Assembly: GCF_902168175.1 (NCBI RefSeq)
Contig: NZ_CABHOU010000108.1
Span: 124,001 to 188,000 of the forward strand
Direction of reading: 5' to 3'
Length of the DNA stretch: 64,000 bases
Origin: an uncultured Chitinophaga sp.
GTDB taxonomy: Bacteria; Bacteroidota; Bacteroidia; Chitinophagales; Chitinophagaceae
Below the pieces are notes generated by a model. The model searched no databases, was not told where the DNA came from, and saw only the letters and a program-made list of their open reading frames with translations. Position numbers and translations under genes: made by a program. Shown one piece after another: positions 3,055-34,518 of this stretch (position 1 is the stretch's first letter; each line of letters begins with the position of its first letter).

Positions 3055-3824
3055 GTGAGTTGCAGCACTATATACCCGGCGTACAGGAAGATCCCTGGGA
3101 GGCGTTAAAAGCGTTTACCAGTGCGCGGATTGCTTTAGGGCGTACGGGGCAGGCAGTGCCGTTAAAGGAGGTGCTTAATTTCCGGCTCGCACACGCTCAT
3201 GCCCGCGATGCAGTGTATTCTGCGATGGAAACAGATATGCTAACAAATGCACTGCGGAGCAATGGGCACACCGTGCATTTGCTGCACAGCATGGCGGCCG
3301 ATCGTTACGAATACCTGCAACGCCCGGATAAAGGCCGCCGCCTCGATAAACATGCTGAGGAAACATTGAAGGAGGCAAATAAGGATAAAGACATTTGTTT
3401 TGTGATCACTGATGGACTTTCAGCTACAGCCATTAACGAGCAGGTACTTCCTTTACTGGGTGAATTGTTGCCTTTAATAAAAGCCGCAGGCTTTGGTTTG
3501 GGTGATTTTAACCTTGTGCAACAGGGAAGAGTGGCAGTGGGAGATGAGGTCGGGGCCTTGCAACGTGCCAGGGCGGTGATCGTACTAATCGGTGAACGGC
3601 CGGGACTTAGTGCTGCCGATAGTCTTGGCGCCTATCTTACCTATTCTCCGCAACCCGGGCTTACTGACGATGCGAGGAATTGCATCTCCAATATCAGGCC
3701 CGGGGGATTAACACCGCAAATGGCGGCCGGCACTATTATGTACCTGCTGAAAGAAGCGTTCAGGCTGCAATTGTCCGGTGTAAACCTGAAAGATGAATAC
3801 CAGTCCGGTTTGTCCGGCGGCTAA
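3051..3824 (+). CDS. eutC: Ethanolamine ammonia-lyase, small subunit
   Basis: EutC closes the cobalamin site of the EutB6C6 complex. Family blocks visible include ITDGLSATAINEQVLPLL in the middle and GERPGLSAADSLGAYLTYSP toward the C-terminus. The ATG at 3051 overlaps the eutB stop as ATGA, the classic coupled arrangement; a GTG two codons upstream (3045) is also in frame but less likely. At 257 residues it is shorter than the roughly 295-residue enterobacterial protein, mostly at the N-terminus, which is variable in this family. It overlaps the convergent DinB-type gene by 4 nt at its 3' end. Confidence 0.93.
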   Translation: MSELQHYIPGVQEDPWEALKAFTSARIALGRTGQAVPLKEVLNFRLAHAHARDAVYSAMETDMLTNALRSNGHTVHLLHSMAADRYEYLQRPDKGRRLDKHAEETLKEANKDKDICFVITDGLSATAINEQVLPLLGELLPLIKAAGFGLGDFNLVQQGRVAVGDEVGALQRARAVIVLIGERPGLSAADSLGAYLTYSPQPGLTDDARNCISNIRPGGLTPQMAAGTIMYLLKEAFRLQLSGVNLKDEYQSGLSGG

Positions 3825-4354
3825 CGCCTTCCCATCAATATATAGAACATGTAATCCGTCATAGGTGCATCGTGTAAACCCACCTGGTGGCCCATGGAAG
3901 TAAGTTGTCCGCGGTGGTACATGCTATGATGCATGGTATGCATCAGCATTTCCGCCCTCGGCCTGGCCGGCGTCATACCATGCGATTCCGTGAAGTTACA
4001 AGGCTCCGCAAGCGTTTCCTCGTCCAGCGATTCCACATACTCACTCAATACCTCCGCCTGCTCCAATACCCCGTCATACAACTCTTCGAGCGTACCGTCA
4101 AAGGTCTGCTGGATATTTACACATTCTCTGCCGGCCACCATCCACGAAAACCAATGTGCTTCCGTTGCCCATATGTGTAGCAGTGTATTACGCAGGCTGT
4201 AAAAGCTGGACTCCGTTTTGGCTTCTATAATGTGTGCCGGCTTACTTTTAAGCCACTTAATGAGGCGCTGGGTAGCCCATTGATTAAAGGCTGCATAGTC
4301 GCGGAGCAGTGCTGCTGCATTAAGCGTCGTGTCGGATTTTATGAGCTGTAACAT
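3821..4354 (-). CDS. DinB-family four-helix protein (putative metal-dependent)
   Basis: 177 residues, fitting the DinB/YfiT-like fold: four helices with a metal site of three histidines. Candidate ligands are H60 in the LLHIWATEAHW helix and H143 and H147 in HHSMYHRGQL, the typical HxxxHRGQ C-terminal motif. Known members of the superfamily act as thiol S-transferases (bacillithiol or mycothiol dependent) or have no known function. A bshC gene elsewhere in this window shows that the host makes bacillithiol, so a bacillithiol-linked role is possible but is inference. The gene is monocistronic and converges on eutC with a 4-nt overlap. Confidence 0.85.
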   Translation of the reverse strand: MLQLIKSDTTLNAAALLRDYAAFNQWATQRLIKWLKSKPAHIIEAKTESSFYSLRNTLLHIWATEAHWFSWMVAGRECVNIQQTFDGTLEELYDGVLEQAEVLSEYVESLDEETLAEPCNFTESHGMTPARPRAEMLMHTMHHSMYHRGQLTSMGHQVGLHDAPMTDYMFYILMGRR

Positions 4355-4441: not shown

Positions 4442-4466
4442 TGCTAAAATATTTAGTAATTTAGTG
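4442..4466 (+). promoter_or_regulatory. Operator-like inverted repeat TGCTAA-N5-TTAGTA upstream of radical SAM gene
   Basis: TGCTAA at 4442-4447 faces TTAGTA at 4453-4458 across 5 nt, and a third half-site TTAGTG lies at 4461-4466. The block sits 5 nt before the ATG and overlaps TAATTTAG (4457-4464), a one-mismatch copy of the Bacteroidota -7 box. The same arrangement occurs upstream of the DUF763 gene at 33294-33310. A repressor site is the simplest reading. Confidence 0.55.
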
Positions 4467-4471
4467 TAGAT

Positions 4472-5731
4472 ATGTCGGACAGAATACGTGAGAAACTGCA
4501 AATACTGGCGGACGCCGCCAAATACGATGTTTCCTGCTCGTCGAGCGGCAGTAAACGGAAAAACGAGAATAAGGGACTGGGAGATGCCTGGGGAAGTGGT
4601 ATTTGCCATACTTATACCGAAGACGGGCGTTGCGTATCGTTGTTAAAAATACTGTTAACCAATTTCTGTATTTACGATTGTGCTTATTGTGTAACGCGCA
4701 AGAGTAGTGATATCAAACGGGTAGCCTTTACCGTTCAGGAAGTAGTTGACCTCACCATAAATTTTTACCGCCGTAACTACATCGAGGGCTTGTTCCTCAG
4801 TTCGGGAATATTTAAGAACGCTGACTATACGATGGAGCGCTTGGTGCAGGTCGCGAAGAAGCTGCGCACAGAACATAAGTTTAACGGTTATATCCATCTT
4901 AAATCCATCCCTGGTGCCAGCGACGAACTGATGCACGAGGCGGGATTGTATGCGGACAGGCTGAGTGTGAATATTGAGATACCCACCGAAACTGGCCTGA
5001 AGCTGTTAGCGCCTGATAAGGATCGCCGGGATATGATCAGACCGATGAATTACCTGAAAGGGGCCATCGAACAGCGCGAGGAAGAGCAGAAGGAGAAAAC
5101 TGCCAGGCCCGGGCGACTGTTTGCCCCGGCCGGGCAGAGTACGCAAATGATCATCGGCGCTACAGGCGAATCCGACAAAGAGATTATGTACACAGCGCAC
5201 CAGTTTTACAAAGGCTATAAACTGAAACGCGTGTATTACTCAGGTTATGTACCTGTGAGTGAGGATGCTCGTTTACCGGCCCTGCAAAGTAAAGTGCCCA
5301 TAATGCGGGAGAATCGCCTTTACCAGACCGACTGGCTGATGCGCTTCTATGGCTTCGATATCAGGGAGCTGCTGAACGATGCCAACCCGCAGCTCGAAAT
5401 GGATATCGATCCCAAACTCAGCTGGGCATTGAGAAATATGCACGTGTTCCCGGTAGATGTGAATAGCCATGATCTGCATATGATTCTTCGGGTACCGGGA
5501 ATAGGCGTACAATCTGCACACAAGATCGTAACTGCCCGCAGGTTCAACCGGTTAAGCCTGGAGCATTTAAAGAGGATCGGGGTGGCAGTGAACCGGGCCA
5601 GGTATTTCATAAGCTGCGATGGCGGTAATTACCATCGTGATCATCCGCAGGAGAGGATAAGGCAGTTTATTTTGAACGAGTCGAAGAGCAAGTACGAGCG
5701 GGGTGCAGTGCAGCAGGGGAGTTTGTTTTGA
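4472..5731 (+). CDS. Putative DNA modification/repair radical SAM protein (TIGR03916 type)
   Basis: 419 residues. The radical SAM signature CxxxCxxC is at C66, C70 and C73 (FCIYDCAYC) and would bind the 4Fe-4S cluster that cleaves S-adenosylmethionine. Near residues 333-365 there is a helix-hairpin-helix-like segment, RVPGIGVQSAHKIVTARRF, typical of non-specific DNA contact. This architecture is that of the predicted DNA modification/repair radical SAM family, which is usually found beside a TIGR03915/DUF4130 protein; that partner is the next gene. The reaction is not known to me. A palindromic operator-like sequence overlaps the promoter. The opposite-strand DinB gene starts 117 nt upstream, so the two are divergent. 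Confidence 0.88.
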   Translation: MSDRIREKLQILADAAKYDVSCSSSGSKRKNENKGLGDAWGSGICHTYTEDGRCVSLLKILLTNFCIYDCAYCVTRKSSDIKRVAFTVQEVVDLTINFYRRNYIEGLFLSSGIFKNADYTMERLVQVAKKLRTEHKFNGYIHLKSIPGASDELMHEAGLYADRLSVNIEIPTETGLKLLAPDKDRRDMIRPMNYLKGAIEQREEEQKEKTARPGRLFAPAGQSTQMIIGATGESDKEIMYTAHQFYKGYKLKRVYYSGYVPVSEDARLPALQSKVPIMRENRLYQTDWLMRFYGFDIRELLNDANPQLEMDIDPKLSWALRNMHVFPVDVNSHDLHMILRVPGIGVQSAHKIVTARRFNRLSLEHLKRIGVAVNRARYFISCDGGNYHRDHPQERIRQFILNESKSKYERGAVQQGSLF

Positions 5732-6094
5732 TGGCGTTGCTCCGTTGGGTACTTCGGATGGATGATTGGGACATCCTGGCTTTGTCTGTGCATTTCAGCT
5801 ATACTAATATATGATTATGGGTGAGAAGGAACAGGTGGCTTAGGCTGTTTGTCATGTTTCTGGTTTGAAAGGTTGCTTTTAAAGACAAGAATTAAAGAGC
5901 CGAAATCATGGGTTAGAAAGTCGTTGGTCGCCTGAATGTTTTGCGGCTTTCCCCGACCTGAAATATATTATCATGAAGAAAGGAATTAAAGATCCTTAAT
6001 TATGGGATGCCGGGAGTTGGTAGTACGGGGCTGTTCACTAAGGTCCTGATTCCAAATTAGTAAATGACCAAAGCCCTGACAAGGCTTGATTAAT
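5732..6094. repeat. 363-bp spacer with imperfect direct repeat (about 50 bp, copies near 5881 and 5974)
   Basis: No convincing ORF. Two related segments, 5881-5930 and 5974-6023, share AATTAAAGA, then ATGGG about 10 nt later and GTTGGT at the end, in the same order and nearly the same spacing, with a period of about 93 bp. A lone TTAGTA half-site lies at 6057-6062, 32 nt before the next gene. The spacer splits two genes that are normally adjacent. Confidence 0.5.
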
Positions 6095-6877
6095 ATGTCA
6101 AAGACGTGCATGGATGTAAATGTGATATATGACGGGACCTGGGCCGGCCTGCTGACCACCGTTTTCGAAACCTACGAACACCGCTGGGATGTAAAAGCAA
6201 TTCGTTCTTATGATAAGCCCGGTCAGCAGGACGTGTTTACGCAGGAAACTGAAGTGATTACCGATCCGGTAAAAGCCGCCAGGGTATGGAAAGGCCTGCA
6301 GTGCAAAGTGCCTGCTGCTGCCAGCCGACATCTTTATTGCTGTTATCTCTCTGAACAGGGAGGGGTTGAAAGGGTGATTTTATCTTGCATACAATTTTAC
6401 TTTTCAGGCGTTAAAGATCCGCATCTCGCTTATGCCAATAACGATGTACTACGCATTACGCAGCTGGCGAAATCGGTAGATCGTGAACGACACAGGATGA
6501 AAGCCTTTATACGTTTCCAGCGTGTGGACGATGACGTGTACTACGCCGGTGTAGAGCCAGACTTTAACGTATTGCCACTAATAATCGATCACTTTCGTGA
6601 TAGGTATGCCGATCAGCGTTGGCTGATATATGATCTTAAGAGAAAGTACGGGATTTATTACGATTTAAACACCGTAGAAGAAGTGTCGGTGGCATTTTCG
6701 GAAGGTCTTAATAAGGGCAGTGCAGTACATGCTGTATTCCATGAAAGCGAACAGCTGTACCAGGATCTTTGGAAGGATTACTTCCGGTATATAAATATTA
6801 GTGAGCGAAAAAATATGAAGCTACATCTTCAGCATGTGCCGAGGCGTTATTGGGGACGGTTGACGGAGAAGGGGTGA
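6095..6877 (+). CDS. TIGR03915-type putative DNA metabolism protein (DUF4130)
   Basis: 260 residues from ATG 6095; ATG 6110 is an alternative that starts at MDVNVIYDGTW, closer to the usual family start. The family hallmark is the N-terminal YDGTWAGLLTTVFE stretch, followed by a C-terminal DUF4130 domain (about residues 85-250) with HYAGVEPDFNVLP-like and RYGIYYDLN-like segments. The family co-occurs with the preceding radical SAM protein and is predicted to act with it on DNA; its chemistry is unknown. Unlike the usual tight pairing, 363 bp separate the two genes here, so it may have its own promoter. Confidence 0.82.
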   Translation: MSKTCMDVNVIYDGTWAGLLTTVFETYEHRWDVKAIRSYDKPGQQDVFTQETEVITDPVKAARVWKGLQCKVPAAASRHLYCCYLSEQGGVERVILSCIQFYFSGVKDPHLAYANNDVLRITQLAKSVDRERHRMKAFIRFQRVDDDVYYAGVEPDFNVLPLIIDHFRDRYADQRWLIYDLKRKYGIYYDLNTVEEVSVAFSEGLNKGSAVHAVFHESEQLYQDLWKDYFRYINISERKNMKLHLQHVPRRYWGRLTEKG

Positions 6878-30767: not shown

Positions 30768-31750
30768 GGTATCAGGGCGGCTGTCATTCCTGCACGCAAA
30801 CCGCTGATAGCGTTCAGGTTTTGTGGGGTAACTTCAATGGTGAATGTCCTGAGTTCGAAGCTGCCTTTTTCTTTCGCAGGTACCCAGTTAGCATATTCCA
30901 GTGCGGGTGCTACGCTACTTACTTCCGCATCAAACTGTTCGGGTTCGCAGCCTGGTATTTGCAGTCGTACTTTGGTGCCAGGCGTCAGTTTGGCCGCTTT
31001 ATCCTGCCGTATGTTAAACCTGGCCATAAACGAATTGTTTTTCTGAAGGGTCATCATCGGATAACCGATCGATACGATTTCACCTTCATGAATGATGAGA
31101 GAAGAAATGATACCATCGGCAGGAGCGTAGATGCGGGTATTATCGGTTAATGCCTTTGTCAGTTCGTAACCCTGCTCGGCCTGGCGCAGTATAGCAGTAG
31201 CGGTTTGCAGCAGTTCGGGTTGTGTTCCTTTCTCCAACATTTGCTGGTTGAGGCGGGCGATTTCCATTTCCTTTCTGGCCGCCTGGTACTTAAAGTGAAT
31301 CAGGTCGCGCTCCGTGCCGGATACAACACTGTCCTGGTAAAGGCTTTCCAGCCGTTCGTAGGTTTTCCTGGCGAGGTCGTACTGGTCCTGCGCGATCTTA
31401 TAAATGTTACCGGCCGATTGTACCATCTCTGGCCTGGCACCTTTCTGTAACAGCTTTAACTGGCCCTGTGCGGCGTCGATGGCGGCGCGGGCCTGTTCGC
31501 GTACGGCATTGATCTCGGTGGTCCTTAAAACCCCTAAAAGCTGGCCTTTATGCACCGTGTCGCCCTGGTGTACCAGCAGCGAATCGAGGCGACCGGGAAA
31601 TTCAGCGGCTACATCTATGTAAGCAGCATCTACCATACCCAGTGGCAGCTCGTTGTTTGGGCGGTTGCCGCGTATGAGGAATAACAATGCAGCCAGCAGT
31701 ATTACGACGGGGATGAGCAATGCCCAGTATTGTTTCAGAAAATCTTTCAT
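30764..31750 (-). CDS. HlyD-family periplasmic adaptor (membrane fusion protein)
   Basis: 328 residues. A single N-terminal anchor (YWALLIPVVILLAALLFLI), a lipoyl half-motif with VDAAYIDVAAEFPGRLDSLLVHQGDTVHKGQ, a long alpha-hairpin (about residues 70-190, rich in A/Q/L/E) and the second lipoyl half TRIYAPADGIISSLIIHEGEIV, followed by a beta-barrel. It connects the inner-membrane permeases to the TolC channel. It overlaps the tolC-like gene upstream and the permease downstream by 4 nt each, so all four are translationally coupled. Confidence 0.92.
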   Translation of the reverse strand: MKDFLKQYWALLIPVVILLAALLFLIRGNRPNNELPLGMVDAAYIDVAAEFPGRLDSLLVHQGDTVHKGQLLGVLRTTEINAVREQARAAIDAAQGQLKLLQKGARPEMVQSAGNIYKIAQDQYDLARKTYERLESLYQDSVVSGTERDLIHFKYQAARKEMEIARLNQQMLEKGTQPELLQTATAILRQAEQGYELTKALTDNTRIYAPADGIISSLIIHEGEIVSIGYPMMTLQKNNSFMARFNIRQDKAAKLTPGTKVRLQIPGCEPEQFDAEVSSVAPALEYANWVPAKEKGSFELRTFTIEVTPQNLNAISGLRAGMTAALIP

Positions 31751-33198
31751 TGTATAACAGATGCAATTTTTTCAGGCGTTCCGATAATGTTGTAATATTC
31801 GGCCAGTGCCAGGTAGTAGCCCAGCACGGCGGTGTAATATGTTTTTCCTATTTCTTCTTCTACCAGTAATGATTCGTTTACGTCTTTTACGGACGAGAGT
31901 TCTTCTTTCACTCTTTGTTGTATAAGACTGGTAGATGTTTGCGCCTGCACACGCGCCATGTTAAGTACTTCAATATCTTTTTCAAGGGCAGTTACTTTGT
32001 TATGAGCCATGGCCGCACCCGCCTGCAAAAGGTATTTGGTGTTCTCTGCGGCCAGCCGCGCTTCTTCCACCAATTGCTCGGTGGCTTTCCGTTTCCGGTA
32101 GTTGGAAAGGCCGCTGAAGATGGTCCATTGAGCCTCTACACCCACGAGCCACGGTGGAATGGTGACGGGTAAGTCGTTCTGGTACAGGTTAAGGCTGGCA
32201 ATGCCGAATATGTTGGGCATCGATAATGACTTGCTGGCTTTCACGGCCGATTCGGCCAGTGCCGTTTTACTGTTGATCGATTTGTAGGTAGCGTTCTGTA
32301 ACCAGAAGTTGTCAGTAACAGTTACAGCCGATTTGACTGCATAGCGAAGCGTGTCATTTATTTCAAGTGCTGAGTCCTGCGGCAACTGCAACAGTCGCCG
32401 CATTTCGATGAGCGCATTTGTTTTTTCCAGTTCCTGGTTGTGTTGCCGGGTAATGGCCTGGGCCAAAGCCACCGTAGCCCAGTTCCGGAGGTAGGGCGGT
32501 ATTAACTCCTGCTTCACCATAGCGGCCGCGTACTGTTCGTTTTTGCTCATCGCTTCTACAATAGCAGCCTGTGACCTCAAAATTGTATTTAGGTAAAGGA
32601 TGCGGATGTAAGTGGCCGCCACCAGGAAGTCCAGCTCCTTTTGCACCAGTTCTACATTCACCACGCCCGATTCGTAGGTGGCCTTCGCAATATCGCGTGC
32701 CGTGTTGAGTTTGCCGCCAAGGTAAATTGGCTGGCGTAAGCCCAGTGCCGCTGTAAAGTATTGTTGTTTGCTAAGGGGAGGGTTATAGTTTGGGTAGATG
32801 CCGTTAATAGCATCTTTGGAGATTTGCTGTATACGGTCCCGTACATTCTGGGGCATATCATTGCCGGTGATCTCTTTGAAAACTTCGCCTGCAGCGGCTG
32901 TACTTTGGGCGGAGGAGCCGTTAACGATGCCATTCCGTACTGTTTGCAGGTTTATTTCCAGCGGTTTGCCAAGGTAATTATAGCCGGCCAGCAGGTCGAG
33001 TTTAGGAAGATAACTTACTTCTTCGGCCCTGAGCTGGTATTGCCGGGCAGTGAGTGAACGACGCGCCTGTTCTATACTGATATTACGCTCGCGCGCTAGC
33101 CGTAAACATTCATCCAGCCGGGTGCCCGGCTGCGCAACAAGCTGCGAAGAGCAAAGAGATAAAAAGAAAAGGTGGCGGGTCAGTAAGCTTAACTTCAT
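31747..33198 (-). CDS. TolC-family outer-membrane efflux protein
   Basis: 483 residues from ATG 33198 (M44 of the open frame), chosen because it gives a signal peptide MKLSLLTRHLFFLSLCSSQLVA. Two repeats of alpha-helical hairpins with beta segments, including LDECLRLARERNISIEQARRSL at the start and an RKRKATEQLVEEARLAAENTKYLLQAG helix near the second repeat, identify an OEP (TolC) protein. First gene of the four-gene exporter operon. The upstream region is shared with the divergent DUF763 gene and contains a palindromic operator-like sequence. Confidence 0.9.
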   Translation of the reverse strand: MKLSLLTRHLFFLSLCSSQLVAQPGTRLDECLRLARERNISIEQARRSLTARQYQLRAEEVSYLPKLDLLAGYNYLGKPLEINLQTVRNGIVNGSSAQSTAAAGEVFKEITGNDMPQNVRDRIQQISKDAINGIYPNYNPPLSKQQYFTAALGLRQPIYLGGKLNTARDIAKATYESGVVNVELVQKELDFLVAATYIRILYLNTILRSQAAIVEAMSKNEQYAAAMVKQELIPPYLRNWATVALAQAITRQHNQELEKTNALIEMRRLLQLPQDSALEINDTLRYAVKSAVTVTDNFWLQNATYKSINSKTALAESAVKASKSLSMPNIFGIASLNLYQNDLPVTIPPWLVGVEAQWTIFSGLSNYRKRKATEQLVEEARLAAENTKYLLQAGAAMAHNKVTALEKDIEVLNMARVQAQTSTSLIQQRVKEELSSVKDVNESLLVEEEIGKTYYTAVLGYYLALAEYYNIIGTPEKIASVIQ

Positions 33199-33271
33199 TC
33201 GTTTGTCCGGTTGTTTTAAAGGATATTTCTTACAACACAGGAAGCGGCTTTTTGTTAAGGATAAAAATTTG

Positions 33272-33304
33272 TTGACAAATAAATTAGCAAAAATGCTAAA
33301 TTTG
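33272..33304 (+). promoter_or_regulatory. Probable promoter of DUF763 gene (TTG / TAAATTTG)
   Basis: TTG at 33272-33274 and TAAATTTG (exact TAnnTTTG) at 33297-33304, 22 bp apart. Only 5 nt separate the -7 box from the ATG at 33310, so the mRNA should be leaderless or nearly so. Overlaps the operator-like repeats. Confidence 0.55.
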
Positions 33305-33310
33305 TTAGTA
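33284..33310 (+). promoter_or_regulatory. Operator-like triple half-site upstream of DUF763 gene
   Basis: TTAGCA (33284-33289), TGCTAA (33294-33299) and TTAGTA (33305-33310, its last base being the A of the start codon). The first two form a perfect inverted repeat around AAAA; the last two form TGCTAA-N5-TTAGTA, identical to the site upstream of the radical SAM gene at 4442-4458. The site covers the -7 box. Confidence 0.6.
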
Positions 33311-34518
33311 TGAATAGATCCGGACATGCAGACCTTCCTTTACATTATGGCCACGTCCCAAAATGGCTGGCCGAACGAATGACCGCGTTGGGCGGGGCTA
33401 TTGTAGAGGCGATCGTGATGGATTACGGAAAGTCCGCCGTACTGCAGCGCCTTAGTGATCCCTGCTGGTTTCAGGCGTTAGGTTGTGTAATGGGAATGGA
33501 TTGGCATTCTTCCGGGATCACCACCTCGGTAATGGGCGCGCTCAAAAGGGCGATTAACCCAATGTCCGGGGCGCTGGGCATTTATGTATGTGGCGGCCGC
33601 GGAACGCATTCGCGTAAAACACCGGAGGAACTGCTTCGGCTTGGCGACAGAAATGGCATAGACGGTAAGGCCATGGTGCATCATAGCCGGTTGGCGGCCA
33701 AAGTAGATAATACAGCTATCCAGGATGGTTTCCAGTTGTATCTCCATAACTTTATTGTAACAGACGAAGGGGAGTGGGCGGTGGTGCAGCAGGGCATGAA
33801 CGAGCAATCCCGTATGGCCCGGCGTTATCACTGGCATGCGCCGATGGTCAGGTCTTTTGTAGATGCGCCGCATGCAGGCATCTACGGCCCGAACCAGGGG
33901 ATGATCATGAACCTGGTACATCAGCAGGCGGATGTAACGCGTAACAGTATCGTAAACATGGTGCAGCGCGATCCTTCACAGATATTACCGGTATACCGGG
34001 AGCTGGTAATGCCTGATCACCACGAAGTAAGGGCGAAGGACGTGCAACTGAAACGCCTGGGCGCTGTACTAGCGTTGGCTTACGAGCGGCCGCCTGAAGA
34101 TTTTGAAAGCCTGCTGCTGCTCGAAGGGGTAGGACCGCGCACCCTGCAATCTTTAACGCTGGTGAGCGAGGTAATTCATGGTACCCCATCCCGTTTTACA
34201 GACCCTGCCCGCTTTTCATTTGCGCATGGTGGTAAAGACGGTCATCCTTTTCCCGTACCTGTTAACGTATACGACGAAACTATCGGTATCCTTAAAGGCG
34301 CTGTCTACAAAGCCAAAATCGGCCAGCAGGACAAACACGATGCTATTCGTAAATTATCTGATTTCGCAGCCTCACTGGAGAAAGATTTCGAACCTAATAA
34401 CCAGTTCGATGAATGGGTACAGCACGAGCGTGATACATCTTACCTGTACGGCGGGCGTACGGTTATGGGAAAAGCGAAGGCTCCGGTGAAGGAGGATGTG
34501 CAGTTGAAGTTGTTTTAG
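33310..34518 (+). CDS. DUF763 protein
   Basis: 402 residues, the usual size for DUF763, a family present in archaea and scattered bacteria with no established function. Family features: an N-terminal GHADLPLHYGHVPKWLAERM stretch, an HHSRLAAKVDNTAIQDGFQ segment near residue 120, and near residue 275 LLLLEGVGPRTLQSLTLVSE, which looks like a helix-hairpin-helix (GVGPRT) and suggests nucleic-acid contact. Then FSFAHGGKDGHPFPV. It starts directly after a TAAATTTG box. The shared operator with the radical SAM gene suggests a DNA-repair-type role, which is inference. Confidence 0.9.
   Translation: MNRSGHADLPLHYGHVPKWLAERMTALGGAIVEAIVMDYGKSAVLQRLSDPCWFQALGCVMGMDWHSSGITTSVMGALKRAINPMSGALGIYVCGGRGTHSRKTPEELLRLGDRNGIDGKAMVHHSRLAAKVDNTAIQDGFQLYLHNFIVTDEGEWAVVQQGMNEQSRMARRYHWHAPMVRSFVDAPHAGIYGPNQGMIMNLVHQQADVTRNSIVNMVQRDPSQILPVYRELVMPDHHEVRAKDVQLKRLGAVLALAYERPPEDFESLLLLEGVGPRTLQSLTLVSEVIHGTPSRFTDPARFSFAHGGKDGHPFPVPVNVYDETIGILKGAVYKAKIGQQDKHDAIRKLSDFAASLEKDFEPNNQFDEWVQHERDTSYLYGGRTVMGKAKAPVKEDVQLKLF

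Follow-up and report, generated by a model that had tools for sequence, protein, structure and literature searches.

The system closest to the locus described here is the SOS regulon of the Bacteroidetes, in which a non-canonical LexA recognizes the palindrome CTAA-N5-TTAG; this LexA is an S24 protein whose N-terminal domain is CI-like (Sanchez-Osuna et al. 2021, PMC8565304). The Pontibacter actiniarum protein was assayed by EMSA with arm and spacer mutants of the motif, and RT-qPCR showed mitomycin C induction in the CTAA-N5-TTAG group; binding and damage response are published for P. actiniarum and other species (PMC8565304). The genes that the main text of that paper places under the motif are dinB, imuA-imuB-dnaE2, radC, splB, topoisomerase IV and COG1573-COG4277.

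Aravind and colleagues (2013, PMC3765255) described DUF4130 as a predicted mutagenesis-related enzyme and linked it to SplB-like radical SAM proteins. A C-terminal Q-L-x-L-F is the consensus for the beta clamp, and this motif is found mainly on transposases and on replication or repair enzymes (PMC4549789). In Flavobacterium psychrophilum, the -7 promoter element has the consensus TAnnTTTG and lies at -12 to -5, and leaderless mRNAs make up just 5.5% of cases (PMC9723704).

The window, a stretch of 64,000 nucleotides from the genome of an uncultured Chitinophaga sp., carries two boxes of the form TGCTAA-N5-TTAGTA, one before a gene for a TIGR03916-family radical SAM protein and the other at the start codon of a DUF763 gene (Table 1). 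They were first reported as two motifs of identical pattern, and this was confirmed: both are exact copies, the only two in the window, where 0.03 are expected, and none of 100 shuffles contained two. Both boxes also have the CTAA-N5-TTAG core with its 5-nt spacer and lie in an upstream region. They are very probably SOS operators of the known type.

Table 1. Positions of features in the window and of boxed genes elsewhere in the same genome.
Feature	Position	Strand	Remarks
DinB-superfamily gene	3821-4354	-	divergent neighbor at box 1
Box 1, SOS-type, TGCTAA-AATAT-TTAGTA	4442-4458	+	exact match; ends 13 bases before the ATG at 4472
Extra half-site TTAG	4461-4464	+	2 nt downstream of box 1; may be chance
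TIGR03916 putative DNA modification/repair radical SAM protein, 419 aa	4472-5731	+	NCBIfam TIGR03916, 665 bits (cut-off 343.5); Pfam Radical_SAM
C-terminal QQGSLF of the TIGR03916 protein	5711-5728	+	variant (weaker) of the QLxLF clamp-type tail
TIGR03915/DUF4130 putative DNA repair protein	6086-6877	+	354 bp downstream of TIGR03916; start codon uncertain; unboxed
Outer-membrane efflux gene	31747-33327	-	divergent neighbor at box 2
Extra half-site TTAG	33284-33287	+	upstream of box 2; may be chance
Box 2, SOS-type, TGCTAA-ATTTG-TTAGTA	33294-33310	+	last A is the A of the DUF763 ATG at 33310
-7 promoter element TAAATTTG	33297-33304	+	inside box 2; consensus TAnnTTTG from PMC9723704
DUF763 protein, 402 aa	33310-34518	+	Pfam PF05559, 449.7 bits
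C-terminal QLKLF of the DUF763 protein	34501-34515	+	beta-clamp-binding consensus
235-aa ORF	L001:1528-2232 (G000:C2:39425)		directly behind an exact box
dinB	L002		box upstream
HTH-S24 (LexA-like) repressor gene	L003 (G000:C10)		box upstream
2'-5' RNA ligase-like gene	L004 (G000:C21:89612)		near a box
GyrB/ParE-type topoisomerase subunit	L005		box upstream; partial sequence, below curated cut-offs
PA0069-family radical SAM gene	L006:1545-2624 (G000:C95), L006 and L007		two boxes upstream
TIGR03916 gene of the window	L008		box 1
DUF763 gene of the window	L009		box 2
radC	L010		box upstream
HATPase gene	L022 (G000:C59:90443)		behind a box; 489 aa, open at locus end
Boxes with unsure gene assignment	L020 and L023		127-181 bp from the nearest start

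Some details of the initial annotation have to be corrected. The asymmetry shared by the two boxes (TG on one arm, TA on the other) had been listed as a common feature but is incidental: in the genome sites and in the orthologues, each arm may carry TG or TA, and other flanks are seen in a few cases. A third half-site was said to follow 2-4 nt further on in both cases, which is true of box 1, but at box 2 the extra half-site lies upstream. Similarly, overlap with a -7 element holds for box 2, which contains the full TAAATTTG, but not for box 1, which merely touches TAATTTAG at 4457. Segments judged by eye to be helix-hairpin-helix-like are GIGVQSAHKI and GVGPRTLQSL.

The motif had also been thought to be missing before other genes, but genes outside the window have it as well. 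In the whole genome (6.65 Mb in 109 contigs), TGCTAA-N5-TTAGTA occurs nine times, compared to none for a reversed control, and the wider TRCTAA-N5-TTAGYA is found at 13 places, compared to two. For the bare core, the genome shows no enrichment (55 matches versus 51 for the control), so the flanking bases are informative here, unlike in PMC8565304, where dyad-adjacent changes are described as having no effect on binding. This lack of enrichment, together with the absence of any excess in the window when up to two mismatches to TGCTAA-N5-TTAGTA are allowed (five found, 5.9 expected), is what could be said for a pair of chance matches in AT-rich promoter DNA. Chance is nevertheless a negligible prospect, already contradicted by the exact copies in the window and the genome and by the conservation before DUF763 and TIGR03916 (controls of 0-1), which is described below.

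SOS or repair-type genes lie behind eight of the 13 TRCTAA-N5-TTAGYA places, the window's two genes among them (Table 1); the remaining five are those at L001, L004, L020, L022 and L023. The imuA-like gene has two sites, each one base off this pattern, and its ImuA match scores 75 bits, short of the 150 set as cut-off. A second CTAA-N5-TTAG site is present both at dinB and at the repressor gene. Among the lexA-, imuA/imuB-, dinB- and recA-like genes that had been named as candidates for carrying the motif, HTH-S24, dinB and imuA-like genes do so, but recA is not among the genes behind the 13 places. The 2'-5' RNA ligase-like gene and the HATPase gene are possible further members of the regulon. 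The 235-aa ORF matched nothing in Pfam or NCBIfam at the thresholds applied.

The likeness to the regulon described in PMC8565304 thus extends from the core and spacer to an HTH-S24 repressor with its own boxes, to dinB, an imuA-like gene, radC and a topoisomerase subunit behind a box, and to double boxes at several promoters. The proposal of a common DNA-damage repressor is supported by the boxes before the HTH-S24, dinB, imuA-like and radC genes and by a core identical to the published LexA-bound site.

The related proposal, that the motif defines a regulon of two gene families, stands only in part: the regulon has already been published, apparently including the radical SAM gene. We take COG4277 to be the TIGR03916 family and COG1415 to be DUF763; since COG4277 is in the published list, box 1 would therefore belong to the published class. 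The main text of PMC8565304 contains neither DUF763 nor COG1415, although its heat map could include DUF763. The placement of DUF763 in the CTAA-N5-TTAG regulon in several genera, based on its upstream boxes, is apparently new.

The candidate regulator is the L003 protein of 250 aa, which matches HTH_3 and Peptidase_S24 and has two boxes upstream of its start. The S24 self-cleavage columns (Ala-Gly, Ser and Lys) are kept in all 36 aligned orthologues, 30 from the family and six from named genomes, which were picked by their GDSM segment, so that the count for Ser holds by construction. In 28 of the 30 family loci, the best-scoring ones and also picked by GDSM, a box is found within 150 bp upstream of the repressor gene. 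Of the 80 DUF763-bearing family genomes, 51 have a clear repressor orthologue, with E values of 7.5e-89 or lower (the next best match has 8.7e-39), and these 51 genomes contain 356 extended boxes versus 106 for the reversed control. The 29 family genomes that lack the orthologue have 43 versus 45. Some box-bearing genomes nevertheless have no overall excess of the extended box, such as G293 (five versus six in the control).

A relative of the repressor with 42-47% identity was found in all six of the searched named genomes with a DUF763 box, and is itself boxed in five of them; two searched named genomes without a DUF763 box gave weaker repressor matches only. Within the family, the DUF763 box is present in 22 of 50 genomes with the repressor orthologue and in 1 of 29 without it (Fisher p = 7e-5, weakened by shared descent, with few pairs in a tree-based pair test). 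In two genomes of genus code g4 (G165 and G570), the numbers of extended boxes are unusually high (25 and 32, compared to two and two for the control), and DUF763 is unboxed.

Paralogy is common in the group (PMC8565304), and several family genomes contain further HTH-S24 matches. A different HTH-S24 protein, or some other regulator with a near-identical site, might thus control both genes in place of the SOS repressor. However, a search of the window's genome with the L003 protein gives just one match at the E limit of 0.001, and the L003 gene is itself doubly boxed, which makes such a regulator unlikely. One case on its side is G469, which lacks a clear repressor orthologue but has a boxed DUF763 (L160). 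The G469 protein is nearest to that of G293, which has another genus code, and so transfer or another regulator would account for its box.

Control by the SOS repressor remains the preferred reading. The window's family is represented by 394 genomes, of which 91 encode DUF763. Leaving out a fragment (G399) and a split gene (G596), 89 loci were read, and five of these without the N-terminal anchor (L099, L105, L109, L157 and L176) were also removed, leaving 84. The exact core precedes DUF763 in 25 of these 84 promoters, while each of ten control words, made up of other spacers and other palindromes, is found in none. The 25 boxed loci span ten genus codes, with the box at -14 to -20 in 23 and at -39 in two. 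In a set of 80 named-genome loci, for which protein similarity was the sole criterion of choice, 36 have the core before DUF763 (controls 0-1), including 15 of 15 in Mucilaginibacter and 11 of 12 in Pedobacter. It is also found in Hufsiella, Pararcticibacter, Niastella, Filimonas, Deminuibacter and Flavitalea and, at other distances, in Fulvivirga and a Flammeovirgaceae MAG. In an order-wide sample, 28 genomes gave 29 DUF763 matches, and 26 of these loci were read. Five have the exact core within 300 bp: four near the start, all belonging to the window's family, and a fifth, from elsewhere, at -170; none of the 16 loci from other families had a box near the DUF763 start.

Conservation before orthologues, on which the initial annotation had made its case depend, is therefore strong in several genera but missing in many other lineages, including 59 of the 84 family loci. 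In a tree of 83 DUF763 proteins, from which L134 was left out (start unresolved, no core anywhere in the locus), the state of the box changes at least six times and follows branches and genera. In the window's own genus, only the window's genome and G253 have the DUF763 box (2 of 7). In the other five genomes, the DUF763 protein belongs to another branch and its gene is unboxed, although the repressor orthologue is present. In four of these five, but not in G285, DUF763 lies behind an MgtC-family gene (identified by Pfam for two and by eye for two). A hidden box before the upstream gene was considered and rejected, as there is no core within about 1.49 kb upstream in the five genomes.

For TIGR03916, the other boxed gene of the window, 34 family loci were read from 59 genomes over the cut-off, and 16 of them have the exact core within the 250 bp before the gene, with controls at 0-1. 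In the order sample, it was found in 10 of 30 loci, from family codes f1 and f21, compared to 2 of 30 for an N6 control spacer. For the PA0069 family, 119 genomes scored over the cut-off; 30 loci were read, and 4 of them had a box. Both boxes of the window sit between divergent genes and might serve the neighbors on the minus strand, the outer-membrane efflux gene and the DinB-superfamily gene. However, the place of the box at the DUF763 start codon is kept across families, and the TIGR03916 box recurs in nearly half of the loci read, so that this explanation is very improbable. The DUF4130 gene that adjoins TIGR03916 in the window resembles the system of DUF4130, SplB-like radical SAM protein and uracil-DNA glycosylase in PMC3765255, the text of which, unlike the present proposal, includes neither DUF763 nor the clamp.

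At DUF763, the box and the promoter appear to be built into each other. A TAnnTT(T/C)G element lies within the box in 23 of the 25 boxed family loci, and many of the box-less orthologues have, by eye, a similar TAAnTT stretch just before the ATG but no palindrome. The DUF763 operator therefore looks like a -7 element that has been made symmetrical. If the -7 spacing of F. psychrophilum is applied to the window, transcription of DUF763 would begin at about 33309, a single base ahead of the ATG, and give an almost leaderless mRNA. A repressor bound at this position would exclude RNA polymerase.

The second feature of DUF763 is its C-terminus. DUF763 proteins end in a strict tail, defined as Q[LMI]x[LMIV]F, in 82 of 84 cases from the family and in 69 of 80 from named genomes, and the remaining 11 named proteins mostly end in QLxLW. 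Among the named loci, QLxLW rather than QLxLF is the usual tail in Bacteroides, Dysgonomonas and their relatives. The strict tail was also found in 31 of 34 family orthologues of TIGR03916 and in 26 of 30 of PA0069, and the L006 protein ends in QLKLF. Among the 80 ORFs of at least 150 codons in the window, only DUF763 has it. It was not seen on the DinB, repressor, RNA ligase-like, RadC, imuA-like and 235-aa ORF proteins of the regulon. The tail is missing from all 15 DUF763 loci read on plasmids, of which 13 are alphaproteobacterial, one is from Legionella and one is haloarchaeal, and is therefore not universal in the DUF763 family. The QLKLF of DUF763 fits the consensus in PMC4549789, as do most TIGR03916 and PA0069 tails; unlike the cases found there, these belong to DUF763 and radical SAM proteins. 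The clamp-type tails, a predicted feature common to DUF763, TIGR03916 and the third regulon member PA0069, are new content.

DUF763 proteins are found in Bacteroidota, on rhizobial megaplasmids and in archaea. No relative was confirmed in viral_contigs, and there was no match in phage records. An AlphaFold2 model of DUF763, built with 51 sequences that are 61-69% identical to the window protein, was of middling quality (mean pLDDT 68.2, pTM 0.71). With this model, Foldseek gave no match at E 0.001, and both Foldseek and VIA-align (best Z 4.4) returned weak, scattered matches only; a PDB profile search gave one match, at E 0.62. No function for DUF763 was found in the literature searched. On the Rhodopseudomonas plasmid pBAL398.3 (L308:3387-5257), DUF763 directly follows alkB, with one base shared, a repair context outside the Bacteroidota. 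At three of 13 alphaproteobacterial loci (Sinorhizobium chiapasense and two Ensifer; L309, L311 and L319), DUF763 is preceded at about -60 by GAAC-N7-GAAC, which we take to be the LexA box of the Alphaproteobacteria. These loci are few and closely related, and the motif was set aside as cross-phylum support.

Repressor binding and damage induction of these genes would follow the published homologue. The L003 protein, as a non-canonical LexA with a Cro/CI-type HTH and an S24 peptidase, would bind CTAA-N5-TTAG and block RNA polymerase, with the DUF763 operator covering the -7 element. Upon DNA damage, RecA-stimulated self-cleavage would remove the repressor and so allow the synthesis of DUF763 and the TIGR03916 radical SAM protein along with Pol IV, the imuA-like protein and RadC. 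If the C-terminal tails bind the clamp, they may hold DUF763, TIGR03916 and PA0069 at replication or repair sites, where the proteins would carry out a putative repair chemistry. We give an even chance to the reading that DUF763 is an SOS DNA-repair protein recruited by the beta clamp, part of one clamp-tethered damage-response set with TIGR03916 and PA0069.

The conserved SOS operator and the clamp-type tail offer a concrete, testable pathway for DUF763, and the common tails suggest a route to DNA for two repair-like radical SAM families of unknown substrate.
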